Shown here piece by piece: positions 26,854-59,075 of a DNA stretch of 64,000 bases. Source of the stretch: Candidatus Hecatella orcuttiae. GTDB taxonomy: Archaea; Thermoproteota; Bathyarchaeia; Hecatellales; Hecatellaceae. The stretch spans positions 551,194 to 615,193 of the forward strand of contig MTLY02000003.1 of NCBI GenBank assembly GCA_002011035.2, given 5' to 3'. Within the stretch, counting starts at the first letter, position 1. Each line of letters begins with the position of its first letter. The notes under the pieces were generated by a model. The model was not told the DNA's origin, searched no databases, and saw only the letters and a list, made by a program, of their open reading frames with translations. Both the position numbers and the translations under genes were made by a program.

Positions 26854-27288
26854 TCACTCTTTCATTTCTTCGTATTTGAAGACGTTGTGGGGGCAGAACT
26901 TGGCGCAGTCTCCGCATCGGTCGCAGACAATGGGGGAAGGTATCTTAGCCTTGAAGTCTATGGCCAAGGCCCCAAGCTTACAGGCGTGAACGCAGTCGTA
27001 GGTTTTACATCCCTCACATTTGGCAGGGGTCAGCGATATGCCTCCCTCGGGAAGAGCGCTGAGGGCCTCCTGCGGACAGGCTTTGACGCATTCAGGGTCT
27101 TTGCAAAACCGGCATGCTATCACATGGTAGGGGTTCTCTAGGCTTCCAGTTTCTCGAACGAAGACTGCTGTGCGGTTGACATCCACGGCATTGTAAAGAT
27201 GCCTGGAGCAGGCGTAGACGCAGTTGTAGCAGCCGATGCACCTGTTGGGGTGGAGGACTTCTATGTGAAAACGCATCCCGATTACCAT
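26854..27288 (-). CDS. 4Fe-4S ferredoxin-like protein (HycB/NuoI-type), AOR partner
   Basis: 144 aa, with cysteines for about four clusters: CIGCYNCVYAC, CRFCKDPECVKAC, CEGCKTYDCVHAC and CDRCGDCAKFCP. The pattern is the tandem-ferredoxin electron-transfer subunit found with AORs and hydrogenases. The ATG at 27276 (MRFHIEVLHPNRCIGC) is an alternative start. Between cdhE (11 nt) and AOR (3 nt), so cotranscribed. Likely passes electrons between AOR and soluble ferredoxin. Confidence 0.85.
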   Translation of the reverse strand: MVIGMRFHIEVLHPNRCIGCYNCVYACSRHLYNAVDVNRTAVFVRETGSLENPYHVIACRFCKDPECVKACPQEALSALPEGGISLTPAKCEGCKTYDCVHACKLGALAIDFKAKIPSPIVCDRCGDCAKFCPHNVFKYEEMKE

Positions 27289-27299
27289 GTATCAGATTT

Positions 27300-28754: not shown

Positions 28755-28761
28755 GGCTCCA

Positions 28762-29961: not shown

Positions 29962-29962
29962 T

Positions 29963-31360
29963 TTACTTCTTTTCCTCCCGCTTGATTATCACTTTCTCAG
30001 CGATGATCTTGGCGTTTTTCAAGATAATCCTAAACCCTCCTCCTGTGGGGGAAACAGCGGTGAGGTAAGCCTCAGAGGGAAGAGGCACCGTTTCCATGGG
30101 CGCCGCTTCTAAGCCAGCCTCCACCTCCACCTCGGCAGCCGGCTTTTCCGGGGCCTTCCACCGTTGAACCACCGGATGGTCGACTTTTTGGAGGAAAACC
30201 TTTAACTCTTCTATGTTGCCGGCTTCCTTCTCTGTGGCTATTCGGCTCCGCAGGTCTTCGGGGATGGCGTCTAAAATTCTTTCCTTAATCTGCGAAGGCA
30301 GCCATACCACCCGCTCCCAGCCTCCGTCGGCCTTGAGAAACTTTTTAGACCTGAGGTACTCGATGGCGATTCCTAGGAAACCTTCGTTCTGAACCCCGCC
30401 GCTGGTATGCCCTGCCAGCGTGGAGAAGCTGAGGCCGTTGACCGCGGAGCCTTTGAACTCTCTGTGAACCACTCCGATACCGTCGACCTCCGGAATGTAG
30501 AAGGCGATGGCCTCGAAGCAGCCGCATGAAGTGTGGGGGTGATGGAAAAGGGTGTGAAGCCAAACGTCTTGGATGGCTCCCAAAGACCTTTCGTTCACCG
30601 TCTTAGTAACTCCCTCGTAGGCGCCTTTCACCGGGTCAAGGCATTGCCCCTTGGGAACTGGAAAGTTGGGGCCTTTCGGGTCTATTCGGTAGGCTGCTCG
30701 GGCGTCAAACCAGCTTATGGAGCCGCAGCCGCCCATCCTGTTGGGGGTTATGATGCAGACGTGGGAGGGAGCGAAGGACTGGCACATGAGGCAGCCGTAA
30801 AACTCGTCCACATCCTCCTCCATCATCCCCCGGGCTTTGGCGTCTCTGGCCGCGTAGGTGTCCAAGGCTTTTGGGTAGAATTCCTCCACCTTCTCCGGGT
30901 CTGTGAAGAAGGTGACCTGAATCTTTTCGATGATGGGGAAGGTTTTCTTGAAAAGCATAATAAGCGCCCGCCCGATCCAGTTGAGGGAGTTCAGTCCCTT
31001 GGCGTAGGCCTTCTTGCTGATGCGGATCCATATGTCCGACCTCTGGTTAAGGTGCATCACACCCTCAATGTAGTTGAGAAAATAGTGGGTTCGACGCTCG
31101 AGAACACCTTCCAGATCCTTTTCCACCTTCTCCCCCGCTACCTCTATGAGGATTCCCAGCCTGTAGCTTCGCCCCTCCTCTAATTGGGGAAGGTCTGGTC
31201 CTACGATGGTTATTTTTCCATCTTCCACTTGGCCGGGAGGCTGGACTAGGGCTACTTCAAATTTTTTATCCACATTTAAGCCCCCGAACTCCAGCCGCAT
31301 TTCCGGTTTCCGAATTCTTTCCCCTTCATGGATCTCGCTTATTTCTACAGGGAACTCCAT
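29963..31360 (-). CDS. cdhC: Acetyl-CoA synthase beta subunit (A-cluster)
   Basis: 465 aa. A-cluster ligands are visible: Cys190, Cys193, Cys202 and Cys212 (CLMCQSFAPSHVC...GGCG) for the 4Fe-4S and Cys279 and Cys281 (SCGCFE) for the proximal/distal nickel pair. Condenses methyl, CO and CoA to acetyl-CoA. The C-terminal ~60 residues after residue ~400 are a variable extension. Second gene of the operon, 11 nt behind the ArsR-like regulator. CdhA and CdhB (CODH) are missing from this operon. Confidence 0.93.
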   Translation of the reverse strand: MEFPVEISEIHEGERIRKPEMRLEFGGLNVDKKFEVALVQPPGQVEDGKITIVGPDLPQLEEGRSYRLGILIEVAGEKVEKDLEGVLERRTHYFLNYIEGVMHLNQRSDIWIRISKKAYAKGLNSLNWIGRALIMLFKKTFPIIEKIQVTFFTDPEKVEEFYPKALDTYAARDAKARGMMEEDVDEFYGCLMCQSFAPSHVCIITPNRMGGCGSISWFDARAAYRIDPKGPNFPVPKGQCLDPVKGAYEGVTKTVNERSLGAIQDVWLHTLFHHPHTSCGCFEAIAFYIPEVDGIGVVHREFKGSAVNGLSFSTLAGHTSGGVQNEGFLGIAIEYLRSKKFLKADGGWERVVWLPSQIKERILDAIPEDLRSRIATEKEAGNIEELKVFLQKVDHPVVQRWKAPEKPAAEVEVEAGLEAAPMETVPLPSEAYLTAVSPTGGGFRIILKNAKIIAEKVIIKREEKK

Positions 31361-44995: not shown

Positions 44996-45865
44996 ATGAG
45001 GAAGTTTTTTAGACCTAGAGAGTATTTTAAACCCGAAACCCTCGAGGAGGCTTTGAATTTACTTGCTAAATATGGGGAATCGGCGAGACCTATTGCAGGC
45101 GGCACCGATCTGCTGGTTAAGAAGCCGCCTGAAGTTGAGTATTTAATAGACATCGCTTCCTTGCCCTTGGATTACATCAAAAACGATGGGGAATACCTGA
45201 AGATCGGCTCTTTGTCCACCTTCCACAGCATAGAGACTTCCAGTCTGTTTAAGGAAGGCGCGTATCGGATATTGGCGGAATCGGCTCATGATTTTGGCCA
45301 AGCCACCGTTAAGAATATGGCGACCATCGGGGGTAACGTGTGCAGCGCTGTTCCTTCCGCGGATTTTCCCCCGGTTTTGATGGTCTTAGACGCTAAAGCT
45401 AAGATAGTCAGTCTGGCTGGGGAGAGGATTGTTTCCATGGAAGAATTTTTTGCGGGCGTAAGGAAAACCGTTCTGAGGAGCGACGAGTTGCTTGTAGAGT
45501 TTCAGATACCTAAACCTCCGCCCCATACAGGAGCGGCATTCTACAAGCTGGGAAGGACCAGCGTGGACATCGCCCTTGTGAACGCGGCCGCACGAATAAC
45601 CTTAAGGTCGGACGGTGTCTGCGAAGATGCGAGGATAGCTCTAGGCGCAGTCGCTCCTACCCCTATCAGAGCCAAGGGGGCAGAAAAATTACTTCGGAAA
45701 AAGGAGATAGACGAGGCTCTTGTGGAAGAAGCAAGTCAAACAGCGTCCGAAGAGACGAAGCCTATAAGTGATGTTCGTTCCTCAGCCGAGTATAGAAAGG
45801 AGATGAGTAAGGTTTTGGTAAAGAGGGTATTACAAAAATCCCTGAAAAGGGCGAAGGGAGAGTGA
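44996..45865 (+). CDS. Molybdenum hydroxylase FAD-binding (medium) subunit
   Basis: 289 aa. KYGESARPIAGGTDLLVKKPPEVEYLIDI is the FAD-pyrophosphate site; ATIGGNVCSAVPSADF is the second FAD motif. C-terminal CO-dehydrogenase-flavoprotein domain. First of three overlapping or closely spaced genes of a xanthine-oxidase-family enzyme. An AAAACTTAAA box (44961-44970) lies ~30 bases before the ATG, suggesting a very short or absent leader. Confidence 0.88.
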   Translation: MRKFFRPREYFKPETLEEALNLLAKYGESARPIAGGTDLLVKKPPEVEYLIDIASLPLDYIKNDGEYLKIGSLSTFHSIETSSLFKEGAYRILAESAHDFGQATVKNMATIGGNVCSAVPSADFPPVLMVLDAKAKIVSLAGERIVSMEEFFAGVRKTVLRSDELLVEFQIPKPPPHTGAAFYKLGRTSVDIALVNAAARITLRSDGVCEDARIALGAVAPTPIRAKGAEKLLRKKEIDEALVEEASQTASEETKPISDVRSSAEYRKEMSKVLVKRVLQKSLKRAKGE

Positions 45866-45884
45866 AGAAAGATTGGGGGATTCT

Positions 45885-46358
45885 TTGATCAAATTAAATG
45901 TGAACGGGGAAATCCACGAGGTGAGGGTAAAGCCGTATTGGACGCTGCTCCGCGTTCTCAGAAACGAGCTGGGTCTAACTGGGGCAAAGCTGGGCTGTGG
46001 CAGAGGGGAATGTGGCGCTTGCACTGTCCTCATGGATGGGAAGCCGATTCTTTCCTGTTTGACACTGGCGGCTAGGGCTGAAGGTAAGAAAATAGTCACC
46101 ATCGAAGGATTGGCGGAAGGACTCAAACTACATCCTTTACAGGAGGCTTTTATTAAAAACGGCGCAATCCAATGTGGTTTTTGCACATCTGGAATGATAC
46201 TTTCCGCCAAAGCCTTGTTAGACCGGAATCTCAACCCAACCGAAGAAGAGGTAAGAGAAGCCCTTTCAGGTAACCTCTGCAGGTGTACCGGCTATGTTAA
46301 GCCGGTTAAAGCAGTACTGGAAGCCGCTGAAATAATGAGGAAAGGTGGAAGTAGGTGA
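45885..46358 (+). CDS. Molybdenum hydroxylase [2Fe-2S] (small) subunit
   Basis: 157 aa from TTG 45885, because GGGGGA (45875-45880) ends 4 nt before it; the in-frame TTG at 45873 lies before this site and has none of its own. Plant-type ferredoxin cluster GCGRGECGACTVLMDGKPILSC and a second cluster QCGFCTSGMILSAKALL...CRCTGYVKPV, all eight cysteines present. It passes electrons from the Mo site to FAD. The stop overlaps the large-subunit start by 4 nt. Confidence 0.88.
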   Translation: MIKLNVNGEIHEVRVKPYWTLLRVLRNELGLTGAKLGCGRGECGACTVLMDGKPILSCLTLAARAEGKKIVTIEGLAEGLKLHPLQEAFIKNGAIQCGFCTSGMILSAKALLDRNLNPTEEEVREALSGNLCRCTGYVKPVKAVLEAAEIMRKGGSR

Positions 46359-48631
46359 GCGAGAAAGAGCTGTCAGTAGTCGGAAAACCTCTCCCAAAGA
46401 TAGATGCCTATGAGAAAGCTGTTGGAAAAGCGAGATATACAGTAGACCTAAACCTACCAGGAATGCTTCACGCTAAAATCCTGAGAAGTCCCTACGCTCA
46501 TGCGAGGATCTTAAAAATAGACACAAGTAAAGCTGAGAGACTGCCGGGCGTGAAAGCCGTTCTTTCTCACAAGGAGGCTCGCATAATTTTGGGGGATGAA
46601 GCTGTCTTAGACGATAAAGTACGGTATGTGGGTGATAAGGTAGCCGCTGTAGCGGCCACAAGCGAGGAGGCAGCGGAAGAGGCATTGGAGTTGATAGAGG
46701 TGAAATATGAAGTTTTACCAGCGGTCTTCGACCCTGAGGAAGCTATGAAGCCGGAGGCGCCCATAATTCACCCAGATGTGCCTTTGGTAAAGGGCAAAGG
46801 CAACCTGAGGGATCCTGTATTTGACTATGGTGTAGGTGACGTGGAAAAAGGGTTCAAAGAGGCTGATTACGTATTTGAGAACAGGTACACGACTCAGCGG
46901 CAAGCTCACTGTTGCCTTGAACCAGACGTGGGTATAGCCAGCTGGGATCCCAGCGGAAAGTTAACATACTGGACATCGGTGCAAGGCGCGTTCATTGTGC
47001 GCGGCATCCTAGCCAGAGGTCTAAACATGCCTGAGAACATGATCAGAGTTATTGTGCCTCCTGTCGGTGGAGGTTTTGGAGCTAAATACGGCCGTTTGGA
47101 GGATGTTCTTTGCGCTTTGCTAGCTAAGAAGACTGGCAGACCCGTGAAGCTGGAGTGCAGCAGAGAAGAAGAATTCGTCACCACCCGAGTACGTTCCTAC
47201 AGTGTCTTCTGGACTAAAACAGGCGTAAAAAAAGACGGCACTTTCACCGCGAGATATGTGAGAGCCATCATAGACATGGGAGCTTACGCCTACGGCATCT
47301 ACATGGCGCAGAGAGCCGGAGCTTGGCTGATAACTCCCTACAGCTGTCCTAACTGCAGATATGAAGGCTACGCTGTCTACACCAACACGCCCAGCTCTGG
47401 GGCGTTTCGAGGATTTAGCAGTGTGCCTATTCACTTCGCTTTGGAATCGGAAATAAACAGAATCGCTGAAGAGCTGGGGATAGATCCTCTTGAATTTCGG
47501 ATGAAAAACCGTAGAAAAACAGGCGAGATAAACCCTTATAACAACGTCCCAATTGACGCAAAAGGTTTTGATGAATGTATGGTGAAGGGAGCTGAGCGCA
47601 TAGGGTGGCGGAGAAAACGTGGGAGAAGGGAGAAGGTTGAAGGCGTAAAGAGGAGAGGCGTGGGGATGGCCATCTCGGTTCATTTCGCCCCTGCTCTCCA
47701 CCCTGATATGCTAGTTCCCGGGGTCGCTGAGATAAACGTTAACGCTGATGGTACAATTCACTTGTTGATAGGAGTAACGGATATAGGTCAAGGAATAAAC
47801 ACAACCTGCGCTCAAATTGCAGCTGAAGAGCTGGGAGTCCGCTTAGAAGATGTAACTGTCTCAAACATAGACACAGATGTCAATCCTTGGGGCTGGCTGG
47901 TGGCTGCTAGCTCCACTCTGATGCAGACAGGAGGAGCGGTGAGGGCTGCTGCTGCGAAGGTCAAAAAACAATTGTTCGAGCATGCCGCTAAAATGTTGGA
48001 AGTACCCCCTGAAGAGCTTGAGGCCAAGGATCGGAGAATCTATGTCAAAAAGGAGTCTGAAAGGGGGATAGAAATCTCAGATGTGATCAGGCAGGCGGGT
48101 GCTCCCTCCATTTCTCCCTATTTCGTCGACGCCAAGGCAGCTTATACTTTTGGCGCAAAGGCCACCTATACCGTGCCTATGTACATTCCTCCTTGGGGCG
48201 CCCAGTTTGCCGAAATAGAGGTGGACACTGAAACCGGCCAAGTGAAGGTATTGAGGTTGGTGGCTGCTCATGACGTTGGCAAGGCAATAAACGTCAGCAT
48301 CGTAGAAGGGCAGATCGAAGGCTCTCTGCAAAACAGCATAGGTTATGCCCTGACCGAAGAACTTATGCTGGATAAAACTACAGGACAGGTGTTAAATCCT
48401 GACTTCTTAGATTACAAGATCCTTCATACTACTGATATGCCTAAAATCGATGTAATCCTTGTTGAAACAAACAGTCCCGCCGGGGTCTTTGGAGCTAAGG
48501 GAGTCGGTGAGATGGGCCATATTCCCACAGCCGCTGCTATCGCCGACGCTGTATACGATGCAGTGGGCGTGCGGATCAAGGAGCTTCCGCTAACCCCTGA
48601 AAAAATCCTTAAGGCATTGAGAGAAAGATAG
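46355..48631 (+). CDS. Molybdenum hydroxylase large subunit (xanthine dehydrogenase / aldehyde oxidoreductase family)
   Basis: 758 aa from GTG 46355. AYEKAVGKARYTVDLNLPGMLHAKILRSPYAHARI opens the domain; VGGGFGAKYG, NTPSSGAFRGFSSVPIHFALES and TDIGQGINTT are substrate/cofactor loops; FGAKGVGEMGHIPTAAAI carries the catalytic Glu. The active-site loop GAFRGFSS is of the xanthine/aldehyde type, not the CSFR loop of aerobic CO dehydrogenase. Likely hydroxylates an N-heterocycle or aldehyde; the real substrate is unknown. Convergent with the ABC importer genes. Confidence 0.88.
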   Translation: MSEKELSVVGKPLPKIDAYEKAVGKARYTVDLNLPGMLHAKILRSPYAHARILKIDTSKAERLPGVKAVLSHKEARIILGDEAVLDDKVRYVGDKVAAVAATSEEAAEEALELIEVKYEVLPAVFDPEEAMKPEAPIIHPDVPLVKGKGNLRDPVFDYGVGDVEKGFKEADYVFENRYTTQRQAHCCLEPDVGIASWDPSGKLTYWTSVQGAFIVRGILARGLNMPENMIRVIVPPVGGGFGAKYGRLEDVLCALLAKKTGRPVKLECSREEEFVTTRVRSYSVFWTKTGVKKDGTFTARYVRAIIDMGAYAYGIYMAQRAGAWLITPYSCPNCRYEGYAVYTNTPSSGAFRGFSSVPIHFALESEINRIAEELGIDPLEFRMKNRRKTGEINPYNNVPIDAKGFDECMVKGAERIGWRRKRGRREKVEGVKRRGVGMAISVHFAPALHPDMLVPGVAEINVNADGTIHLLIGVTDIGQGINTTCAQIAAEELGVRLEDVTVSNIDTDVNPWGWLVAASSTLMQTGGAVRAAAAKVKKQLFEHAAKMLEVPPEELEAKDRRIYVKKESERGIEISDVIRQAGAPSISPYFVDAKAAYTFGAKATYTVPMYIPPWGAQFAEIEVDTETGQVKVLRLVAAHDVGKAINVSIVEGQIEGSLQNSIGYALTEELMLDKTTGQVLNPDFLDYKILHTTDMPKIDVILVETNSPAGVFGAKGVGEMGHIPTAAAIADAVYDAVGVRIKELPLTPEKILKALRER

Positions 48632-48751: not shown

Positions 48752-49561
48752 TTAACGAGTTCTTTTTTCGAGAAGCCCTATGAAGACGCTTAAACCGATG
48801 GTTTTGCTTATGATGAAAATCAGGATAGTGTAGATGAGAATCAAAAAGATCGAAGCAGCTGCGAAGGTTGGGTCAACTTGCTCTCTCATGAAGGTTAAAA
48901 GCACCACTGGCAGAATTAACGCATCGCTACGGGAGAGAAACACTGAAGCGGTTACCTCGTCTAGAGAGATCACAAAGGCAAAGACTGAAGCTGCTATGAT
49001 GCCGGGCTTTATCATGGGGAGAGTAATTCTTCTGAACGCCCGTAGACCGCTCGAACCTAGGACTTTTGCCGATTCCTCTAAGGTTATGTCAAACCCGCTT
49101 AGAGTGGCTGCGATTGCGCGGATAGAAAAGGGTATTGTCAAAATCACGTGAGCTATGGTTAGGTTGAAGAAGCTTATGTAGATTCCCAGGATTCCTCTGA
49201 GAAGAAAAAGTAACGCCGACCCTGTGACAACAGCGGGAACTATTAATGGCATAAAGAATAACATATTCAAAAAATCTTTCCCTCTGAAATTATAACGAAC
49301 CATACCGTAGGAGGTTAAAAGCCCTGTTACCACGGATATCGAAACTACCACAGCAGCCAAAATAAGGCTGACTCTGAAGGCGTTGATGAAAACCTCTTCC
49401 TGGATAAATTTATTGACCCATTTCAGGGAAAAGCCTGGAGGAGGAAATGTGGGCGTGGTCTCCGGGCTGAAAACGATTCCCACCGTCAAAGGCAGAGGAA
49501 TGAGAAGGAAGACGACGCTGAATGCTAATACGATTTTAACTAAAATTTTGTGAAGTTCCAT
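48752..49561 (-). CDS. ABC transporter permease, PotC-like
   Basis: 269 aa with six helices. RAIAATLSGFDITLEESAKVLGSSGLRAFRRITLPMIKPGI is the EAA loop that touches the ATPase. The protein matches the PotC/spermidine-putrescine permease group. Last gene of the potD-potA-potB-potC set; 9 nt separate it from potB-like. Confidence 0.82.
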   Translation of the reverse strand: MELHKILVKIVLAFSVVFLLIPLPLTVGIVFSPETTPTFPPPGFSLKWVNKFIQEEVFINAFRVSLILAAVVVSISVVTGLLTSYGMVRYNFRGKDFLNMLFFMPLIVPAVVTGSALLFLLRGILGIYISFFNLTIAHVILTIPFSIRAIAATLSGFDITLEESAKVLGSSGLRAFRRITLPMIKPGIIAASVFAFVISLDEVTASVFLSRSDALILPVVLLTFMREQVDPTFAAASIFLILIYTILIFIISKTIGLSVFIGLLEKRTR

Positions 49562-49570: not shown

Positions 49571-50476
49571 TCACCTGCCGCCTACGGTCAATCTCGCTGG
49601 CATTTTTTTGCTTGTGAAATAGTTAACTCCGTACCATATTGCCAGAGTATAGGTGAGAAGAACGAAAGCCATGGCAGCGCCCAGTGGATAATTAAGAGTG
49701 AACATGAATCTCTCGTATATGAAATTGGCTATGAGTGTCACTACCCCGCCGCCTACTATCATGGGAGTGACAAAAGAAGCCACGTTCCACGCGAAAAGAG
49801 CTGAGAACACTCCGATGACTCCTGGAAGACTGAGAGGCAGAGTGACCCTGATAAAAGTTCTCACAGGGTCTGATCCCAAGGTTTTTGCAGCGTCTTCTAG
49901 CGTGGGGTCGATGTTTTGAAGGGGTCCTATCAGGAAAAGAACAGCGAATACAGCACCCCATTGGCCTAAAGCTATAGTCACAGCGGCTTCATTGTACAGC
50001 AGTATGACTCTCGACATTCCTAAAAGGCTGAAAAGGTTGTTGATGGTTCCATAATATCCGAGGAGGACTATCCAAGAATAAAGGCGAATGAGGAACGATA
50101 TAAGAAATGAAATGGTCACCGCTACGATGACGAAGCTTCTAGTTTTGGAAGGTTTTGCTCTGACGATCCAAAAGCTTAAGGGATACCCTAAACCTAGGGC
50201 GATGAGTGTCGCTAGGAGAGCTACTCTCAACGTAACTATCATGACCCTTTGGTAAGCGGGTTCAGTGAATATCAGTATATAATTTTCTAGAGTAAACGCT
50301 TTCTCTATTTGTAAACCTACTAAATGCCTATAAAAACTGAGTTCTCCCATCATAGCTAAGGATACTATGAAAAAACCCATTATAATAAATACGGGGAAGA
50401 AAACCATGAATTTTAGTTTTTGAAAACTGAATATCGCCTTCAACCTTCCAGTATTAGAGAATCTTCGCATTGCCAT
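49571..50476 (-). CDS. ABC transporter permease, PotB-like
   Basis: 301 aa with six helices. The EAA loop is IDPTLEDAAKTLGSDPVRTFIRVTLPLSLPGVIG. The annotated ATG overlaps the end of the ATPase gene by 37 nt; the later ATG at 50470 also fits. The protein pairs with the PotC-like permease. N-terminal ~20 residues are polar, then FMVFFPVFIIMGFFIVSLAMMG. Confidence 0.82.
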   Translation of the reverse strand: MAMRRFSNTGRLKAIFSFQKLKFMVFFPVFIIMGFFIVSLAMMGELSFYRHLVGLQIEKAFTLENYILIFTEPAYQRVMIVTLRVALLATLIALGLGYPLSFWIVRAKPSKTRSFVIVAVTISFLISFLIRLYSWIVLLGYYGTINNLFSLLGMSRVILLYNEAAVTIALGQWGAVFAVLFLIGPLQNIDPTLEDAAKTLGSDPVRTFIRVTLPLSLPGVIGVFSALFAWNVASFVTPMIVGGGVVTLIANFIYERFMFTLNYPLGAAMAFVLLTYTLAIWYGVNYFTSKKMPARLTVGGR

Positions 50477-51510
50477 TCAACGACCACCGTTTCACCTGGA
50501 GGAAAGAACTCTTCTTCAATGCTGACCGCTGAAATCGGAGTGTCCTTCACATCTATACAATAGGTTTTGAACATTCCCTTGAAAGATGCGCTCTGAACAC
50601 TGCCTATGAAACTGTTCTTTTCTTTGACTTCCCCTTTACACCTGATCTTAATTCTTTCCGGCCTTACAACCACTGTGACCTTATCGTTTTCTTTAAGCTT
50701 TGAACCTGAATTTAACATGGAATGTAGAATGAGACCTTTCTCCGTTCGGACGCACACGTAGGGCGCTTGTATTTTTGTCACTCTCCCTTCAAAAAGATTC
50801 GCCTCACCGATGAAATCAGCTACAAAGCTGGATTTCGGCAACTTATAAATCTCATGCGGATTTCCAACCTGCACTATCTTGCCTTTTCTCATCACTGCGA
50901 TGACGTCGGACATGGTAAGGGCTTCCCCTTGGTCGTGGGTGACATAAACAGCGGTTACGCCTATCTGGTTGATGATCCTTTTTATCTCCAACTGCATGGC
51001 TAAACGCAGCTTCAGATCGAGGTTGCTGAGGGGTTCATCAAGTAGTATTATTTTAGGTTCAACAACCAAAGCTCTTGCCAACGCTACCCGCTGCTGTTCT
51101 CCCCCGCTCAGTTGGTAGGGGTACCTCTGTTCATAGCCGGGAAGCTTTACTATTTCTAAAATTCGTGCAACTTTGTCTCTAATTTTGTCTTTGCTCAGCT
51201 TTCGTTCCTCTAATCCGTAAGCTATGTTCTTGAAGACGGTCATATGGGGGAAAAGCGCGTAATTCTGAAATACCATGCTGAGGTTTCTTTTGTAGGGAGG
51301 AAGGTTGTCGACCCGGCGGCCGTCCATGTAAATACTGCCACTATCCTGCTTGGTTAAGCCAGCTATTATCCTAAGCAACGTCGTCTTTCCACAGCCGCTA
51401 GGCCCCAAGAGGGTGAGAAACTGTTTTTCTTTCAAGCTGACGGAAACGTCGTCGAGCACTTTAACTCCATCATAATATTTGACGATACCTTGGACACGCA
51501 TTGCCTCCAA
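50440..51510 (-). CDS. ABC transporter ATPase, PotA-like
   Basis: 356 aa. Walker A GPSGCGKTT, Q-loop YALFPHMTVFKN, signature LSGGEQQRVALARAL, Walker B IILLDEPLSNLD and H-loop YVTHDQGEAL. The last ~100 residues are a TOBE (substrate-sensing) domain typical of PotA/CUT1/spermidine-putrescine importers. TTG 51510 follows AAAGGAGAGC; ATG 51501 is an alternative start. The C-terminal part overlaps the next gene's start. Confidence 0.88.
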   Translation of the reverse strand: MEAMRVQGIVKYYDGVKVLDDVSVSLKEKQFLTLLGPSGCGKTTLLRIIAGLTKQDSGSIYMDGRRVDNLPPYKRNLSMVFQNYALFPHMTVFKNIAYGLEERKLSKDKIRDKVARILEIVKLPGYEQRYPYQLSGGEQQRVALARALVVEPKIILLDEPLSNLDLKLRLAMQLEIKRIINQIGVTAVYVTHDQGEALTMSDVIAVMRKGKIVQVGNPHEIYKLPKSSFVADFIGEANLFEGRVTKIQAPYVCVRTEKGLILHSMLNSGSKLKENDKVTVVVRPERIKIRCKGEVKEKNSFIGSVQSASFKGMFKTYCIDVKDTPISAVSIEEEFFPPGETVVVEWQCEDSLILEG

Positions 51511-51764: not shown

Positions 51765-52907
51765 TTAACCTTTCACTCCTAGAAGTGGACGGATTTCTTC
51801 GTCAAACCGTGCAGTCCACTCTTCCATTTTCTCCCGCGCCACCAGCGGATCGTATGCATACGCGTATTTTTCAATCTCTTCCTTGGTCAAGGCGTAGGGA
51901 TACGCAGCGGCCTCTGCATTTATGTTTGTTGGGAACTGGCCTAGTCGTGCAGCTGATTCTTCGTTTATCTCTCGGTCCAAAGCTAGGTTCACGTATTTGA
52001 AGGCCCATTCTTTTCTGGGACTGTTTGTCACGTGCAGAGTCCATTCTCCTAAGTGAACTGGATGCTTCTCGGAGGCGGCGGCGAATGCCACGGCAACCCC
52101 TCTCTCCAGTAATGGTAGGAGGCTGTCGTTTGTTGAACCTAGGTGCACGTTGATTTCTCCCCTTTCGATAGAACTGATGATGTCCCCTACTGTTGGGGTG
52201 ATGAGCGTGATGTTCGGCGCTATCTTTTTCAGCAATTCCCATCCGGGCTCTGGATTATATTCGTCTCCACCCATAGCATAAGCCAGCCGCAGCAAGGTTA
52301 CTCCGCCATAATAGCCAATGGGAACTATTCCTATCCTGTATTGAGGGTCAGCAAGGTCTTCCATGGACACCGGCTCGTCAACTAGATCGGTACGATATAG
52401 TGTTCGTACGTGAGACATGAAATTGGCTACACCGTAGATTTTACCATTGTATACCGTCATGTATTCGTCGGGGATTTCTTCCAAATTCGGCATTTCCTCC
52501 ACCGGGAAGGGGGCTATGATGTTGTCTATAGCGGCTTCCAAACCTGCGACATGGGTAGCACCCCAGACATCGTTGAAATAGTTAGGTAGGTCAGCTCTGA
52601 TCTTGGCCAGCCCCTCTGTGGAATAAGCCTCTACCTCATACCTTACAGGAATACCGAATTCTGCTTCGAACATTTCGTTAATATATTCAAACGCTGCCCT
52701 GGATTTGGGGTCTCCCCAAGCTAAGAGTGTTATAAAGTCCGGCTTCGGTACTGGCGTAGGCGTGGGTGTAGGCGTCGGTGTTGGAGCCGGGGCTGGGGGC
52801 CTTGTGGCCTGCCAGGCGGCGTAGCCGCCCACACCAGCCACCACCACAGCCACAACCGCAGCAACACCGTATTTTAGGGCGCTTCTACGAGATTCGGAAG
52901 ATGTCAA
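51765..52907 (-). CDS. Secreted solute-binding protein, PotD-like, with Tat-like signal and P-T linker
   Basis: 380 aa. The N-terminus has RRSALKYGVAAVVAVVVAGVGG, i.e. a twin-arginine-type RR motif before a hydrophobic segment, then a P-T repeat linker (PAPTPTPTPTPTPVP) and the binding domain. TLLAWGDPKSRAAFEYINEMFEAEFGI, WGATHVAGLEAAI, GIVPIGYYGGVTLLRL and INVHLGSTNDSLLPLLERG fit the extracellular polyamine/Fe-siderophore/phosphonate-type family. It probably stays membrane-anchored. Separate transcription unit from the other pot genes (254 nt gap). Divergent from the corrinoid gene, so both could be co-regulated. Confidence 0.82.
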   Translation of the reverse strand: MTSSESRRSALKYGVAAVVAVVVAGVGGYAAWQATRPPAPAPTPTPTPTPTPVPKPDFITLLAWGDPKSRAAFEYINEMFEAEFGIPVRYEVEAYSTEGLAKIRADLPNYFNDVWGATHVAGLEAAIDNIIAPFPVEEMPNLEEIPDEYMTVYNGKIYGVANFMSHVRTLYRTDLVDEPVSMEDLADPQYRIGIVPIGYYGGVTLLRLAYAMGGDEYNPEPGWELLKKIAPNITLITPTVGDIISSIERGEINVHLGSTNDSLLPLLERGVAVAFAAASEKHPVHLGEWTLHVTNSPRKEWAFKYVNLALDREINEESAARLGQFPTNINAEAAAYPYALTKEEIEKYAYAYDPLVAREKMEEWTARFDEEIRPLLGVKG

Positions 52908-52941
52908 GAACTTTCACCGGTTTAGTCTATTACCAGATATC

Positions 52942-52951
52942 TTATATATAA
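52942..52951 (-). promoter_or_regulatory. TTATATATAA box serving the PotD-like gene
   Basis: A perfect palindromic TATA box ~35 bases before the potD-like start (52907). Because the sequence is symmetric it could also work in the other direction. Confidence 0.45.
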
Positions 52952-53005
52952 AAGTTTCGAGAAAAAATAGATGGAAATATTAATCAGCATCCCCATTAGA
53001 AAATC

Positions 53006-53012
53006 TTATATA
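53006..53012 (+). promoter_or_regulatory. TATA box of the corrinoid protein/methyltransferase operon
   Basis: TTATATA (within ATCTTATATAG) sits ~48-54 bases before the TTG start at 53060. The same ATCTTATATA occurs at 52939-52948 near the potD-like promoter. Confidence 0.45.
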
Positions 53013-53032
53013 GATAATGAAATGAAAATTAT

Positions 53033-53054
53033 ATCCCCTCATAATTTGGGGGAT
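53033..53054 (+). promoter_or_regulatory. Hairpin covering the ribosome-binding site of the corrinoid gene
   Basis: ATCCCC (53033-53038) can pair with GGGGAT (53049-53054), loop of 10 bases. The GGGGGA run is also the best Shine-Dalgarno for the TTG at 53060, so the hairpin could control translation. Confidence 0.3.
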
Positions 53055-53059
53055 TTCCT

Positions 53060-53707
53060 TTGTCCAAAGAAGAAGTTTTGGAAAAGCTACGCAGAAGTTT
53101 TCTCAGCTACGATGAGGAAGCCACTCGAAAGGCTGCGGCGGAGGCTCTCGCTGCGGGAGTAGACCCCTTGGAGGCTGTAAGCGTCCTTACAGAGACTATC
53201 AGAGAGCTAGGTGAGAAATTTTCTAAGATGGAAATCTTTCTCCCCGACTTGATGCTGGCGGCAGATGCCATGAGAGCTGGATTAACCGTGTTGAAGCCGG
53301 AGTTGATGAAAAGAAAGGCGGAGACCAGAACTCTAGGTAAGATTCTAATAGGTGTGGTGAAGGGGGACATCCACGACATCGGTAAAACCATTCTGGTCAC
53401 GATGCTAGAGGCCGAGGGTTTCGAAGTGATCGACTTGGGAAAAGATGTTCCCATAAGAAAATTTGTGGAAGAAGCTCAAACTCACAACCCTGACATCATT
53501 GCCGCTTCCGCTTTGATGACGACGACGAGGCCTGAGCAAAGAGGACTTATTGAATATCTTAAACATCTGGGCTTCAGGGACAAATATAAGGTTATGGTGG
53601 GAGGCGGTGCGGTGACAAGTCAGTATGCCGAAGAGATAGGCGCTGATGGATACGGTGAAAACGCCCCTGAAGCTGTGGAAGTTGCAAAAAAACTGATTTC
53701 TAAGTGA
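53060..53707 (+). CDS. Corrinoid (methyl-carrying) protein of the MtmC/MttC family
   Basis: 215 aa from TTG 53060. Residues 1-~90 are the four-helix B12-binding cap; residues ~95-215 the Rossmann-like cobalamin domain with GDIHDIGK (Asp103, His105 as lower cobalt ligand, Gly108) and MVGGGAVT. This is the single-carbon carrier that accepts methyl from a substrate-specific MtxB protein. 14 nt before the first MtmB homologue, so it is the natural partner of both. A reductive activase (RamA) and an MtbA-like second methyltransferase are not in the window. Confidence 0.9.
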   Translation: MSKEEVLEKLRRSFLSYDEEATRKAAAEALAAGVDPLEAVSVLTETIRELGEKFSKMEIFLPDLMLAADAMRAGLTVLKPELMKRKAETRTLGKILIGVVKGDIHDIGKTILVTMLEAEGFEVIDLGKDVPIRKFVEEAQTHNPDIIAASALMTTTRPEQRGLIEYLKHLGFRDKYKVMVGGGAVTSQYAEEIGADGYGENAPEAVEVAKKLISK

Positions 53708-53721
53708 AGGGGAGTTCAGTT

Positions 53722-53899
53722 TTGTCGAGGTCTAGGGTGTGGGAGCTTTGGCGGAGGGCTGAGACGGGTCCTCTCTGCCCGGAGCGGGAGTTTGACCTGA
53801 AGAGGTTTTATCCGGCTGTGAAGAGGCTGGTGAAGGAGTACGACATAACATACGACCCTGAAACCGTCATCCCCACCGACAACACCCTCATCGACGACG
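53722..53899 (+). repeat. 178-bp perfect direct repeat, first copy (5' end of MtmB homologue 1)
   Basis: Identical base for base to 55139-55316. It covers the start codon and first ~59 codons; both flanks differ sharply (53900 onward and before 53722). Confidence 0.95.
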
Positions 53900-55110
53900 T
53901 TTTCAAGGCGGGGATCGATCTACTGACCGAAGTGGGGGTGCTTTGCCCGGATACCGAGAAGATTATTCAGTTGGAGGAGCGGGAGGTCAAAGAATCCTTA
54001 GCTACCCTCTCCGGTGAAATGACGGTAGGGGAAGGAAAGGACGCCTGCCTTCTGAAACATAGAAAGATGGAAGACCATGAGCCTGCACGCGTCTTCGCAG
54101 GGCCTTCAGGAAATCCCATATCCGAGGAGATGGCTATCCCCATATACCAGTCTTGCGCTCAAGAACCAACCGTCGACCTGCTTATGTACGGTACACCTAC
54201 CACAATTGCGGGTATGGTGTCAAAGGACGGTTCGCCCATGGAGATGTACGCGGAGGTCGCCAATGTACGCTGGCTGAGGGAGGCTGCCAGAAGAGCAGGA
54301 AGACCGGGTATGTTCATTATCGGTTCTGGAGCAGTAGGTGTGGCACCCGCAATACTGGCCAGCTTGGTAGAGAACGGCTATAGGAAAACCGACGGAATAC
54401 AGCTCGCAGGACTACCGCAGTTAAAAATACCTTACTTTGAACTTTGCAAGGCTGAATTCTGCATCGAGTACGGGTGCAGAGGCTGGGTTACCTCCCCAGC
54501 TTACATAGGGGGGTTACCGGGCGGACCTGAAGCGGCTGCCGTCACAGAGGTAGCTGAGTGCATAGCTGCCAATCTTGTGTTTCGCACACCTTGGGTCTGT
54601 GTGGACATTCACGACCTTCTGTATCCGCCCGGCACGTCGAGGAGGGATGTAATGAGCATGGTGAACTTGGTTACAGCTGCTCTTGCAAAGCATACCAAGT
54701 TGATTGTCTCCACCCTCTGCGACCGCGTTTATGCAGGATGTTGCACGGACATGGCTTTCTATGAATTTGCAGTGGCAGCCCTTGGAGCTGCTGTTGCTGG
54801 AGGAGACCCTATGAGTGGATGTTGCAGAGAAGGCAGGTACACCGACTACGTAACCGGTATGGAGGGAAGATGCACAGGTGAGATTGCTAAATCGGTTACA
54901 GGAATGAGGAGGGTGGATGCAAACGACATAGCGAAGGCCATCTTAGCCAAGTATGAAGACCGCCTTCCACCGAAAGGGAAACCACCCATTGGGAAGGAGT
55001 TTCGAGAATGTTACAATCCGAAAACGGTTACACCTAACAAAGAATATGTAGAACTTTATGGGAAAATTAAGAAAGAACTGGAAGATATGGGGATTAGCTA
55101 CAAATTTTAG
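53722..55110 (+). CDS. MtmB-family corrinoid methyltransferase, pyrrolysine-free (copy 1)
   Basis: 462 aa from TTG 53722, preceded by GGGGAG; full length of the monomethylamine methyltransferase MtmB (458). The signatures are ISEEMAIPIYQS, GSPMEMYAE and the C-terminal GKEFRECYNPKTVTPNKEY. In methanogen MtmB the pyrrolysine sits in AGRPGMGV-Pyl-GPETS (residue 202). Here the aligned segment is AGRPGMFI-Ile-GSGAV, with ATC at 54319-54321 encoding Ile200. No internal TAG is needed. MtmB transfers methyl from monomethylamine to its corrinoid protein; without pyrrolysine the substrate is open (as with MtgB, the Pyl-free MttB homologue that uses glycine betaine). Terminates with TAG at 55108-55110. 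Confidence 0.85.
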   Translation: MSRSRVWELWRRAETGPLCPEREFDLKRFYPAVKRLVKEYDITYDPETVIPTDNTLIDDVFKAGIDLLTEVGVLCPDTEKIIQLEEREVKESLATLSGEMTVGEGKDACLLKHRKMEDHEPARVFAGPSGNPISEEMAIPIYQSCAQEPTVDLLMYGTPTTIAGMVSKDGSPMEMYAEVANVRWLREAARRAGRPGMFIIGSGAVGVAPAILASLVENGYRKTDGIQLAGLPQLKIPYFELCKAEFCIEYGCRGWVTSPAYIGGLPGGPEAAAVTEVAECIAANLVFRTPWVCVDIHDLLYPPGTSRRDVMSMVNLVTAALAKHTKLIVSTLCDRVYAGCCTDMAFYEFAVAALGAAVAGGDPMSGCCREGRYTDYVTGMEGRCTGEIAKSVTGMRRVDANDIAKAILAKYEDRLPPKGKPPIGKEFRECYNPKTVTPNKEYVELYGKIKKELEDMGISYKF

Positions 55111-55138
55111 GTTTGTGACGCTGAGGGTAGGTGTGGAG

Positions 55139-55316
55139 TTGTCGAGGTCTAGGGTGTGGGAGCTTTGGCGGAGGGCTGAGACGGGTCCTCTCTGCCCGGA
55201 GCGGGAGTTTGACCTGAAGAGGTTTTATCCGGCTGTGAAGAGGCTGGTGAAGGAGTACGACATAACATACGACCCTGAAACCGTCATCCCCACCGACAAC
55301 ACCCTCATCGACGACG
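55139..55316 (+). repeat. 178-bp perfect direct repeat, second copy (5' end of MtmB homologue 2)
   Basis: Second copy of the block at 53722-53899, 1417 bases apart. The identity ends abruptly at 55317, with no third copy seen. Confidence 0.95.
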
Positions 55317-56533
55317 CCTTCAAAGCCGCCATCGACCTACTACTGGAAGTAGGTGTCCTTTGCACGGACACAGAAAAAATAATCAAGCTTGAAGAAGGAG
55401 AGATCAAGGAAGCTCTTGCCACTTTCCCAAAGGAGATCACCGTCGGCGAAGGCAAGGATGCTGTTACTCTAACTCATAGGAAGATCGAAGACGATAAGCC
55501 TCCTAGGATCATGGGAGGACCCAACGGTAGCCCTATATCCGAGGAGATGGCGATTCCCATCTATCAAAGCTACATCCAAGAACCTATGCTCGACATACTT
55601 TTTTATGGGACGCCGACGACGGTGGAGGGTATGGAGGTGAAAGCCGGCTCCCCCGTGGAGTTGTACGCTGAAATAGCCAATGTCTACTGGATGAAAGAAG
55701 CTGCGAGGAGAGCTGGAAGACCCGGCATATGCACTCTTGGAGCCGCGGGGGCGACTGCGGCTCCCCAGATACTGGCCAGCTTAGTGGAGGGTGGTTACAA
55801 AAAAACCGACGCTATGCAACTCAGTCCTCCTCCTCAATTGAAGGCTCCTTACTTCATGCTCTGTGAAGCAGCCCATTGCATTGAATATGGGTGCAGAGGC
55901 GTAGTCATCCCCAGTTCCATCATAGGCGGCCTAGCTGGAGGGCCTGAGGGCGCCGCCATAACCAACATTGCTGAATGCATAGCCTTCGCCATACTTTTCA
56001 ACACTCCTTGGGTGCATCCCTTCATGCCTGAGGCACTCCATGCCCCTGGATGCTCCGCTTATCCTCCGGAAATGGCTATGGAACTTCTGTCAATAGCCGC
56101 TTTAGTCAAACATGCGAATCTCATAATTACCAGTGGTGCGAACTCTAGGACCTTCTCAGGACTTTGCACTGATACGACCTTCTATGAGATTGCAGCACCC
56201 GCTATAGGCAAAACAGTGATAGGCGCCAACCTCCATGCAGGTTCAGCGAGGAAAGGCTACTACACCGATTACATGGCAGGCATATCAGCTCGGTGCACCG
56301 GAGAAGTAGGGTGGGCCGCTGTGGGGCTGAAACGGGAGGATGCCAACGAGATGGTTAAAACAATTATGGCAAAATACGAAGATATACTGCCACCCAAAGG
56401 AACGCCGCCCGTTGGAAAGAAATTTCAAGAGTGCTACGACGTCCAAACTGTCACACCGACAAAGGAACATGAAGACTTATATAAGAAAGTGAAAAAAGAG
56501 CTTGAAAACATAGGGTTAGCCTTTAAATATTGA
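55139..56533 (+). CDS. MtmB-family corrinoid methyltransferase, pyrrolysine-free (copy 2)
   Basis: 464 aa from TTG 55139, AGGTG just upstream; the 27-codon longer reading into copy 1 is spurious. Same family signatures: ISEEMAIPIYQSY, GSPVELYAEIANVYW and GKKFQECYDVQTVTPTKE. At the pyrrolysine position the segment is AGRPGICT-Leu-GAAGA (CTT, 55736-55738, Leu200). The first ~59 codons are identical in DNA to copy 1, the rest clearly diverged, so the two copies probably differ in substrate. 28 nt after copy 1, in one operon with the corrinoid protein. Confidence 0.85.
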   Translation: MSRSRVWELWRRAETGPLCPEREFDLKRFYPAVKRLVKEYDITYDPETVIPTDNTLIDDAFKAAIDLLLEVGVLCTDTEKIIKLEEGEIKEALATFPKEITVGEGKDAVTLTHRKIEDDKPPRIMGGPNGSPISEEMAIPIYQSYIQEPMLDILFYGTPTTVEGMEVKAGSPVELYAEIANVYWMKEAARRAGRPGICTLGAAGATAAPQILASLVEGGYKKTDAMQLSPPPQLKAPYFMLCEAAHCIEYGCRGVVIPSSIIGGLAGGPEGAAITNIAECIAFAILFNTPWVHPFMPEALHAPGCSAYPPEMAMELLSIAALVKHANLIITSGANSRTFSGLCTDTTFYEIAAPAIGKTVIGANLHAGSARKGYYTDYMAGISARCTGEVGWAAVGLKREDANEMVKTIMAKYEDILPPKGTPPVGKKFQECYDVQTVTPTKEHEDLYKKVKKELENIGLAFKY

Positions 56534-56738
56534 TTTCTTAATCCTTAAACGGGGTCTGTTTAAAAGATAGACTGAAAAGCTGAAGCTTGATTTGTGGAAA
56601 TAGCTTTTTCATTCTCATGAGTCTTGCAGGAGACGCTTTAATCTGTCCCTAAATATGCTATATCGCCCCAAAAAAATGACGGCTACTCCCTTTCCAGCAT
56701 TAGTTTCTTTGAGTAGCCTATAACTGCTTTGGTTGAAA

Positions 56739-57236
56739 TCAGCGTAATCTTGGTTTTTTAACGTTGTTCACCAGAAGTTTAATCAGTTCTTTTTCTTGGG
56801 ATCTAGCTGAAAGGGCCTCTAGGTTTGTGAGTTCCAATGCTTCTTTGGGGCAAGCCTTAATGCAGGCAGGATCTCCACCGCAGAGGTCGCAGACAACTAC
56901 AACTTTTCTATCAGGATGTAAGGTTAACGCTCCGATGTCGCAAGCGTCGATGCATAGGCCGCAGCCTGTGCACTTTTCATCGTCAACGATTATTATACCT
57001 GTCGAAGGATCTTTGGTTAAAGCTTCCAGGGGGCAGCTTTCGACGCAAGGCGGGTTTTCACATAGTTTACATGCTAAAGCCATATTGCCGACAGCTTCAG
57101 CTTCAACAATACGAACTGTCTTTATCCGACTCAGCAGAGGGTTGAACTTTCCCTCCTTCACAGCTGAGCATATCAGTTCGCAGATACGGCAGCCTGTACA
57201 TTTCTCAGGACTCGCTACTACATAGCTACGTTCCAT
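56739..57236 (-). CDS. 4Fe-4S ferredoxin-like electron-transfer protein (AOR partner)
   Basis: 165 aa. Motifs: CTGCRICELICSA, CKLCENPPCVESCP, CTGCGLCIDAC and CDLCGGDPACIKACP, for up to four 4Fe-4S clusters. Starts immediately after the AOR stop (57237/57236), so it is cotranscribed with and most likely the electron acceptor of this AOR. The last ~20 residues are basic. Confidence 0.85.
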   Translation of the reverse strand: MERSYVVASPEKCTGCRICELICSAVKEGKFNPLLSRIKTVRIVEAEAVGNMALACKLCENPPCVESCPLEALTKDPSTGIIIVDDEKCTGCGLCIDACDIGALTLHPDRKVVVVCDLCGGDPACIKACPKEALELTNLEALSARSQEKELIKLLVNNVKKPRLR

Positions 57237-59075
57237 CTAGTTCCCTCCATACGTCACCATATCAAGCCCTAATTTGGCGAGTTTTTCCTTCGGAGGTATA
57301 CCCTCCGCACTCCAGCCGCGAGCTTTAAAGTAGGCTTCCAAAAGGAGGCTTCGCTCCTCCTCGGTAAATCTGATCCCCTTCAACGGACCGTTACCTATGG
57401 GTTCTTTGAAGATTCGAGCGGGATAGGTTTCATCTTTCAGGGTCCACCCTTCTCTGATGTTGTAACTTTTTTCAAGTGTGTAGATTCTTTCCCCGGCTAA
57501 GCTCAGTTCTTCAACACTCAGAAATAACCCGGTTGCCAACCGGTAGAGTTCAGCTATCTGCTCATAGCCTGTAATCACTTTTCTCGTAAACTTGCAGAGG
57601 ATCAAGGAATCGATGACAGCCCAAAGGTTTTCCCTGTCAGCCACTAACCTGCCATAGGCTGGATCCGCCTTAGTCCCTTCGACCTTACCTGCCAAGTCAA
57701 AGTCGTAGGCGCTGGCGGTCATATGGTGGCCGCCGCGAGTTGAGGTCATAAATGCAAGAGCACAAACCTTCAGACCTCTTACCTCGTAGTCTGGTAACTC
57801 CAATCCCTTACTGTGCATGGCGAAATGCTGGGAGTCCTTCCCAAGCTTTTCAGAGGCTCTTTTCACACCTTCAGCCAAGAGGTCTCCTATGCCCTTGCGG
57901 TAGGCTATCTTTCTGATAATTTCCAAAACGGCCTCCCCGTTTCCGAATTTGAGCTCAAGACCGCCTGTGTCTTCCCGGGTCAGCAAGCCTTTTTGGTAAC
58001 ATTCCATAGCCCAGCCTATGGTAACTCCGACGCTTATGGTATCAACACCGTATCGGTCAGAAAACTCTGTAGCCTTGACCATCAACTGATAGTTACCTAC
58101 TCCTGTGGAGAGGCCTAACCCGTAGAGGCTTTCCTGCTCGACGCTGGCTGTAGTCCCTTTATAAGGTCCGTTCTTCAGAACGGTTACGGGATCGCAGGCT
58201 ATGGGGCAACCTTGACATGCTATCATCTTCGGGTGATAACGTTCTTTCGTGGTTTCTCCGGTAAACTCTTCATGAAGCACATGGTCGCTGGACTGCTGCC
58301 AGTTTCTCGTCGGCGAGATGCCCATTTCGCTAAGGGAAATCATTCCTCCGGGAGTGCCGTATAGCCTGTAGTATTTCGTGGCATCACCTTGGCAATCCTT
58401 GTAGAGTCTATTGCAATACTCAACCAATTCATCTATTTTCGCCACCTCTAAAGACTTGGAGCCGCGAACTGCCAGGGCTTTGAGTTTTTTAGACCCCATC
58501 ACAGCACCCATCCCTGTTCTGCCTGCTTGTCTACTCTTGTCGCTGGTTATACAGGCATATCTGACTAGGTTTTCCCCCGCGGGGCCTATTGCCGCAACGC
58601 TGATGTCCCTGTCGCCTATTGTCTCCTTTATCATGTCTTCCGTTTCCCATGAATCCCTCCCCCATAGGTCCTTCGCATCTTTAAACTGCACCGAGTCGTC
58701 GTCGATGAAGAGGTAGGTTGGCTGGGCGGCCTTTCCGGTTATCACCACAGCGTCATATCCAGCCCATTTGAGCGTCGGACCCCAAGAGCCTGAACATACG
58801 CTTTCCCCCATGAGAAAGGTGAGGGGAGACTTGGCGTGAACTATATACTTGCCTGCGGAAGGAATGCAGGTTCCAGCAAAGGGTCCTGTGGCAAAGATTA
58901 AAACATTGGCTGGGTCGAAGGGTTCCACCCTAGGCGGAGCGTTTTTGCACAGATAGTATATGCCGAAACCGTTTCCGCCTATGTATTTCCTGCAAAATTC
59001 TTCCTGCAGTGTTTCCGATTCGATTCTCTGACGGGTTAGGTCAACATGTAAGACCTTGTTTCTATAGCTGTACAC
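57237..59075 (-). CDS. Aldehyde:ferredoxin oxidoreductase family (tungsten), methyltransferase-cluster copy
   Basis: 612 aa. Domain 1 starts RNKVLHVDLTRQRIES; GGNGFGIYYL is the pterin loop; GMGAVMGSKKLKALAVRG and ACQGCPIACD (4Fe-4S cysteines) with the later Cys in LILCKFTRK complete the site. Only moderately similar to the other AOR in this window. A likely CTATAATTTG-type promoter is in 59095-59120. It is convergent with the second MtmB homologue, 205 nt away. Substrate could be an aldehyde released in catabolism of a methylated amine or amino acid. Confidence 0.85.
   Translation of the reverse strand: MYSYRNKVLHVDLTRQRIESETLQEEFCRKYIGGNGFGIYYLCKNAPPRVEPFDPANVLIFATGPFAGTCIPSAGKYIVHAKSPLTFLMGESVCSGSWGPTLKWAGYDAVVITGKAAQPTYLFIDDDSVQFKDAKDLWGRDSWETEDMIKETIGDRDISVAAIGPAGENLVRYACITSDKSRQAGRTGMGAVMGSKKLKALAVRGSKSLEVAKIDELVEYCNRLYKDCQGDATKYYRLYGTPGGMISLSEMGISPTRNWQQSSDHVLHEEFTGETTKERYHPKMIACQGCPIACDPVTVLKNGPYKGTTASVEQESLYGLGLSTGVGNYQLMVKATEFSDRYGVDTISVGVTIGWAMECYQKGLLTREDTGGLELKFGNGEAVLEIIRKIAYRKGIGDLLAEGVKRASEKLGKDSQHFAMHSKGLELPDYEVRGLKVCALAFMTSTRGGHHMTASAYDFDLAGKVEGTKADPAYGRLVADRENLWAVIDSLILCKFTRKVITGYEQIAELYRLATGLFLSVEELSLAGERIYTLEKSYNIREGWTLKDETYPARIFKEPIGNGPLKGIRFTEEERSLLLEAYFKARGWSAEGIPPKEKLAKLGLDMVTYGGN

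Follow-up and report, generated by a model that had tools for sequence, protein, structure and literature searches.

A tandem pair of pyrrolysine-free MtmB homologues with a corrinoid protein in Candidatus Hecatella orcuttiae: a putative methyltransferase system for N-methylated solutes

Can a methyltransferase of the monomethylamine methyltransferase family (MtmB) do without pyrrolysine (Pyl), and what would it then demethylate? This question is raised by a locus of Candidatus Hecatella orcuttiae (assembly GCA_002011035.2, contig MTLY02000003.1, positions 551,194 to 615,193), analysed here as a window of 64,000 nucleotides (nt) numbered from its first letter, in which the gene of a corrinoid protein is followed by two MtmB genes devoid of a Pyl codon. 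We propose that these genes probably encode a corrinoid-dependent methyltransferase system for an imported N-methylated solute.

Operon, pyrrolysine site and fold

The three genes form one tight operon on the plus strand (53060-56533):

53060..53707, plus strand: corrinoid protein of the MtxC type with the B12 motif GDIHDIGK (PF02310 and PF02607)
53704..55110, plus strand: MtmB copy 1 (W1), 468 aa (PF05369, 323.5 bits, cut-off 25; 1L2Q, E 1e-61)
55133..56533, plus strand: MtmB copy 2 (W2) (PF05369, 328 bits, cut-off 25)

A sequence-only reading of this DNA had described a corrinoid protein followed by two full-length MtmB homologues, and both its coordinates and its anatomy of the locus proved right, and Pfam confirmed the three genes; an importer operon of the Pot type, divergent, and an aldehyde:ferredoxin oxidoreductase (AOR) plus ferredoxin, convergent, were likewise found where it had placed them. 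The corrinoid protein, which carries the DxHxxG motif of a cognate partner beside its methyltransferase, scored 223.4 bits with the NCBIfam profile TIGR02370 (cut-off 215.3), and its closest solved structure was MttC in 7XCN (E 3e-60). Its gene overlaps that of copy 1 by 4 bp. The longest open reading frame (ORF) of copy 2 starts at ATG 55058 (491 aa), but homologues are better matched by GTG 55133, 22 nt after copy 1, which is likely to be the start. The two copies are 63% identical to each other. Their first ~175 nt (53704-53890 and 55133-55320) are essentially identical, the remainder reaching ~40-75% per 60-nt block, and this near-identity of the 5' ends presumably reflects a recent gene conversion or partial duplication.

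Alignment to MtmB of M. barkeri (1L2Q) showed which residues occupy the column of Pyl202: copy 1 has Ile there, at position 206 of its 468-aa ORF, and copy 2 has Leu, at position 227 of its 491-aa ORF or 202 counted from GTG. The same residues had been numbered 200 from the sequence alone, a difference due to the choice of start codon; the column is the one then claimed. Neither copy has the TAG at residue 202 that marks a Pyl-dependent monomethylamine methyltransferase, and no in-frame internal TAG is present anywhere within either gene. The stop codon of copy 1 is itself a TAG, which is ordinary, because TAG terminates 22% of the sampled genes in this genome; Pyl at another position of the two proteins was thus considered and rejected.

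The change is not limited to one residue. In the two copies, Glu229 is replaced by Gln, Glu259 by Thr/Ile, Gln333 by Leu/Gly and Tyr335 by Arg, so that none of these four residues, which surround Pyl in the crystal structure of MtmB, is kept, whereas the Pyl-containing MtmB of the same host retains all of them. Since several residues of the Pyl pocket are replaced, the pocket has been rebuilt. Nevertheless, both copies are full-length members of the MtmB family, and the AlphaFold2 model of copy 1 (mean pLDDT 90, the predicted local distance difference test) indicates with high confidence that the MtmB fold was kept despite the loss of Pyl: in Foldseek the best PDB matches were MtmB structures (1L2Q, template modelling score, TM, 0.91, E 1e-43), with MttB and MtgB structures far behind (TM ~0.48).

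Pyrrolysine decoding in the host and relatives of the pair

The host genome (1.75 Mb, a draft assembly, 97% complete with 4% contamination) was searched by family, and the stretches around methyltransferases as well as 20 blindly chosen control stretches of 20 kb (400 kb) were read. The family search of the whole genome detected 12 MtmB genes: one has a single in-frame TAG and 11 are Pyl-free. Moreover, a short MtmB remnant with three internal stops lies at G000:C3:128342-128494. The Pyl-MtmB adjoins tRNA-Pyl, PylS (279 bits, cut-off 178) and three genes that follow, coding for a protein of the radical SAM family, one of the ATP-grasp type and PylD, i.e., the PylBCD cassette. The host further encodes one Pyl-MttB and two Pyl-MtbB, in which TAG occupies the positions expected for it. 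The sequence-only description of a Pyl-free system thus holds for the window paralogues and does not extend to the organism, because pylTSBCD and these Pyl proteins are present elsewhere in the genome; Pyl cassettes have already been reported in Bathyarchaeia (PMC9723677). Since TAG still ends 22% of the sampled host genes (at least 200 aa), it is not globally reassigned, and in the presence of a full Pyl system both meanings of the codon must coexist. The share of TAG-ending genes was 31% in sampled other Bathyarchaeia and 3/57 in Methanosarcinaceae stretches.

Out of 257 Bathyarchaeia genomes, 20 had MtmB homologues; the seven other genomes of the host's family had none. Copy 1 was matched in 48 of 398 genomes sampled from the phylum, with no match above 38% identity outside the class. 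The nearest relative, from Bathyarchaeota archaeon bin796 (CP070659), is 42% identical, and in a tree of 84 rows copies 1 and 2 are sisters joined to it with full support. The sequence-only reading had suggested asking whether TAG-less MtmB homologues cluster with corrinoid proteins and Pot importers. In bin796, too, a corrinoid gene lies directly upstream, and several lineages have tandem MtmB copies accompanied by a corrinoid gene. A PotF-like importer lies by another Pyl-free MtmB of the host (C3:404.8 kb), and no Pot-type importer was found near the bin796 gene.

The statement that no Pyl-free MtmB had been characterised is out of date: MtqB of Methanococcoides methylutens Q3c, encoded with MtqC, became in 2026 the first Pyl-free MtmB with a demonstrated function, the demethylation of tetramethylammonium and choline in vitro, and its authors list most of 1,061 MtmB sequences as of unknown function (PMC13044021). 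Three Methanosarcinaceae sequences (L205, L207 and L209; genomes of 2.3-2.5 Mb) were taken as MtqB-type by family, gene order after a corrinoid gene and Met-Cys motif rather than by accession. The window pair is 31-32% identical to these and falls into a different, supported clade, outside that of the MtqB-type rows as set by context and motif. At about MtmB 259-261, the motif position being inferred from the text of PMC13044021, the three have CMC and the window pair has GWVTSPA and GVVIPSS, so the Met and Cys of the MtqB pocket are absent. Both the tree and the active-site motif led us to reject the pair as MtqB orthologues; it is a new branch of a recognised, mostly uncharacterised class of Pyl-free MtmBs. 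With the pair outside the MtqB clade, the earlier idea of a new substrate class is conceivable but goes further than the present data. Other arrangements were also seen: a conserved Pyl-free MtmB of Methanosarcinaceae (L206, L208, L210, L212-L214) has no corrinoid gene and lies beside a Cdc6-like AAA protein and a hydantoinase A-like protein, and in L215 and L216 a Pyl-free MtmB and corrinoid gene lie by what, judged by eye, seems to be a transporter of the energy-coupling factor type (two-domain ATPase and two small membrane proteins).

Methyl transfer, import and candidate substrates

A methyl sink is likely to be provided by genes of the tetrahydromethanopterin (H4MPT) branch and of carbon monoxide dehydrogenase/acetyl-CoA synthase (CODH/ACS) in the same window:

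14881..31360, minus strand (Ftr on plus): H4MPT branch and CODH/ACS (Fwd, Mch, Mtd; CdhC/D/E), assigned by Pfam

Within this region, a FwdC-type GXGXG domain is fused to Mch in one 601-aa protein (14881-16686, minus strand). The host also encodes MtrA, C, D, E and F and two MtrH, with MtrE, D, C, A (+F) and MtrH grouped outside the window. MtrA with an MtrF domain is found at L134 6374-7156 (host C2 ~110.4-111.2 kb); Mtr looks complete and Mcr was not found. As PF02249 gave no match for McrA in the 97% complete genome, the host appears to be a non-methanogenic Bathyarchaeon with complete H4MPT/CODH-ACS and Mtr, in agreement with the sequence-only view of a non-methanogen with the H4MPT route. 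Entry of methyl groups into the Wood-Ljungdahl path, also suggested there, is plausible because the host has Fwd, FwdC-Mch, Mtd, Ftr, CODH/ACS and Mtr but no detected McrA; it is not a new proposal, since Adam et al. (PMC9635834) already put forward such entry via Mtr for Bathyarchaeia with complete Mtr.

On balance, we consider it probable, with considerable reserve, that the operon 53060-56533 encodes a corrinoid-dependent Pyl-free MtmB-type methyltransferase system in which the following steps all apply. The divergent Pot-like ATP-binding cassette (ABC) transporter would import an organic N-methylated solute larger than methylamine, from which copies 1 and 2 would each remove an N-methyl group and pass it to Co(I) of their corrinoid partner; as diverged copies, they may act at two methyl positions, serve a pair of related substrates or form a mixed oligomer. 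Since the enzymes lack the Pyl that would bind a neutral amine and activate it, the substrate itself is expected to be a good methyl donor, for example, as in the case of MtqB and MtgB, an N-methyl compound that is quaternary or cationic. From the corrinoid protein the methyl group would pass to coenzyme M or H4MPT via an MtbA-like or MtrH-type second methyltransferase and Mtr, and finally enter the H4MPT/CODH-ACS pathway. What the data show directly is gene content, fold, the loss of Pyl and its partner residues, and a host with Mtr, Fwd and CODH/ACS in which McrA was not found; enzymatic activity, coupling to import, acceptor and substrate are what we infer. The mode of action is most likely that of MtqB and MtgB, with the Pyl-less barrel presenting an activated N-methyl group of the substrate to Co(I). 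A methyl-transfer function is further supported by the fact that in other Bathyarchaeia MtrH and/or RamA adjoin MtmB and corrinoid genes at related loci.

The importer operon (48752-52907, minus strand) diverges from the methyltransferase operon across a gap of 152 bp:

48752..49561, minus strand: ABC permease, PotC-like (best NCBIfam PotC, 137 bits, cut-off 326)
49571..50476, minus strand: ABC permease, PotB/PotH-like (best NCBIfam PotB, 115 bits, cut-off 348)
50440..51510, minus strand: ABC ATPase, PotA-like (TIGR01187 potA, 370.7 bits, subfamily cut-off 355.6)
51765..52907, minus strand: substrate-binding protein (SBP_bac_8, 33.8 bits)
52908..53059, no strand: divergent promoter region, read from the sequence

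Putative TATA-like elements in the divergent region are TTATATATAAAAG (52942-52954) and CTTATATAGA (53005-53014). The designation of the importer as polyamine-type was upheld for the ATPase and the permeases, which are Pot-like, with the ATPase under every equivalog cut-off shown and the permeases below theirs. It was not upheld for the binding protein, for which only SBP_bac_8-type families were detected: no NCBIfam profile matched, and among solved structures no PotD or PotF was found at E 0.01, the best match being 4EDP (E 1.5e-7). Judged from this protein, a polyamine importer is not supported, and the label seems weak for the window locus; at the second Pot-type locus of the host (C3:404.8 kb), the binding protein does match PotF. 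Several host binding proteins (that of the window and those of L013, L014, L017 and L129) begin almost identically (SRRSALKYGVAAVVA..GGYAAWQATRP) and continue with a linker of Thr-Pro repeats.

Several points weigh against the proposed system. The binding protein 51765-52907 matches no recognisable ligand class, and no Pot-type importer lies near the MtmB relative of bin796. Neither a second methyltransferase nor RamA is encoded in the window operon, and tblastn (E 1e-15) found no RamA in ~43% of the host genome, the rest of which was not searched for it. Moreover, host and window derive from a draft assembly with the contamination given above.

On the other side of the operon lies a pair on the minus strand, convergent with it (56739-59075):

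56739..57236, minus strand: 4Fe-4S ferredoxin-type protein paired with AOR (Fer4 families)
57237..59075, minus strand: tungsten AOR family protein (PF01314/PF02730; 1AOR, E 4e-114)

AOR plus ferredoxin occurred four times in the host DNA examined, which is less than half of the genome. One set (25015-27288) adjoins the corrinoid subunits of CODH/ACS, another is the one convergent with the window pair, and the remaining two lie upstream of MtbC/Pyl-MtbB and of a corrinoid/UroD pair, respectively; the 400 kb of control DNA contained none. Methanosuratincola-type genomes have the gene order Fd-AOR-corrinoid-MtmB-MtmB, with 135-164 bp to the corrinoid gene. RamA was found at seven MtmB loci and AOR at none of those seven, numbers too small for exclusion. 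Conventionally, AOR would act on an aldehyde formed from the demethylated product. A role of AOR and ferredoxin in corrinoid reactivation is conceivable because the corrinoid gene is constant while the methyltransferase partner varies; a search of the literature on AOR as corrinoid activator returned nothing relevant. We give little credence to the wider idea of a large set of Pyl-free MtmBs, this pair among them, whose functions have diversified towards imported organic N-methyl compounds new to corrinoid methyltransferases (some for N-methyl nucleobases or nucleosides, this pair for another cationic N-methyl compound), with AOR and ferredoxin as a low-potential activator that replaces RamA and does not serve the substrate.

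Many of the 11 Pyl-free MtmBs of the host adjoin importers and purine/hydantoin-type genes. A nucleoside-type ABC importer (PnrA/Bmp) is found beside Pyl-free MtmBs in the host (three loci), Methanomethylicia-type genomes, another metagenome-assembled genome of Thermoproteota and Chloroflexota; one such importer was also present in the 20 host control stretches (L228), so that the association is not exclusive. At C1:520.1-535.3 kb (L012), two Pyl-free MtmBs lie with an SsnA-like protein, two carbamoyltransferases, dihydropyrimidinase, carbamate kinase, and PreA/PreT-like and pyridoxal phosphate (PLP) enzymes, a set resembling anaerobic purine catabolism. Additionally, at C1:97-113 kb (L128) a Pyl-free MttB and a corrinoid protein lie near hydantoinase A/B, an M24 (creatinase-like) peptidase and an amino-acid-type ABC importer. 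Such nucleoside- and purine-type neighbours are leads for the other paralogues and bear on the window pair indirectly. In the window itself, a possible partner of the pair is:

44996..48631, plus strand: xanthine dehydrogenase (XDH)-type molybdenum hydroxylase with FAD, 2Fe-2S and Mo subunits (XdhA model, 637 bits, below the equivalog cut-off of 780)

Together with an ArgE/YgeY-type hydrolase and a PLP enzyme, it is located at a distance of 5-14 kb from the pair. Two small proteins of the window gave no match in a PADLOC scan.

Other explanations of the pair have to be weighed against this background. It may consist of functional equivalents of MtqB, i.e., choline or tetramethylammonium demethylases in a new subclade, as the family, the order of corrinoid gene and MtmB and the lack of Pyl are the same and no Pyl-free MtmB other than MtqB has had its function demonstrated (PMC13044021); in view of the low identity to MtqB-type sequences, the separate supported clades, the missing CMC motif and an importer that is not of the choline/betaine family, we consider this rather improbable. 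Similarly doubtful is the use of N-methylated heterocycles (purines, pyrimidines, hydantoins), a substrate type that other host paralogues are suspected to have: the PnrA/Bmp importers beside Pyl-free MtmBs in four groups, the host pair within the L012 cluster and the XDH-type enzyme, hydrolase and PLP enzyme near the window pair point in this direction, whereas the window importer is Pot-type, the pair lies outside the clade carrying nucleoside/purine-type neighbours, and the XDH association is weak (4/8 XDH-type genes within 12 kb of a Pyl-free methyltransferase, P ~0.02, with the distance chosen afterwards). A literature search for corrinoid-dependent removal of methyl groups from methylated nucleosides or caffeine found nothing relevant.

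An N-methylated polyamine or amino compound might instead be demethylated and then transaminated, with the aldehyde oxidised by the adjacent AOR and ferredoxin reduced. Both the window and the locus at C3:404.8 kb have a class III aminotransferase and AOR plus ferredoxin nearby as well as Pot-like or PotF-like importers. This route is nonetheless unlikely, as the window binding protein has no detectable polyamine-binding relative and AOR plus ferredoxin also occurs by the CODH/ACS corrinoid genes and Pyl-MtbB/MtbC, where no aldehyde is expected. Finally, the loss of every known catalytic partner residue of Pyl would be explained by decayed or moonlighting paralogues lacking methyltransferase activity; given that both genes are intact and full-length, that the fold is retained with high confidence, that the operon is shared with a corrinoid protein and that Pyl is dispensable according to MtqB, this is very improbable.

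Comparison with known systems

Pyl-free MtmBs number in the hundreds and the substrate is known for only one, MtqB (2026). With a Pyl-MtmB of complete pocket and eleven Pyl-free paralogues in one cell, what the loss of Pyl opened up is directly testable, and each Pyl-free locus points to a class of candidate substrates and supplies a binding protein for screening. Should methylated nucleobases, polyamines or similar compounds be the substrates, non-methanogenic archaea of the acetogenic type would have a source of methyl groups in buried biomass.

Compared with Pyl-MtmB, both that of M. barkeri (1L2Q) and the host copy (C1:354.1-355.5 kb), the window pair belongs to the same Pfam family and fold, whereas Pyl and its four partner residues have been replaced. 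With the methylotrophic Bathyarchaeia of complete Mtr and no Mcr (Hecatellales; PMC9635834) the host shares methylamine methyltransferases, Mtr and the Wood-Ljungdahl pathway, for which oxidation or assimilation of methyl groups was proposed; that proposal concerns methanol and methylamines, and the eleven Pyl-free MtmBs with their own importers, a feature of this host, are not described in the passages considered. Non-MtmB systems such as MtgB and other Pyl-free quaternary-amine methyltransferases of the MttB family follow a common logic, i.e., loss of Pyl, a substrate with an activated N-methyl group and a corrinoid acceptor, but they are of a different family, which the copy 1 model matches poorly. 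MtqB/MtqC (PMC13044021) shares with the window system a Pyl-free MtmB fold and a cognate corrinoid protein encoded next to it; the window pair differs in its ~31% identity to MtqB-type sequences, separate clade and other active-site motif, and its system in two tandem copies, a non-methanogenic host and a dedicated ABC importer.

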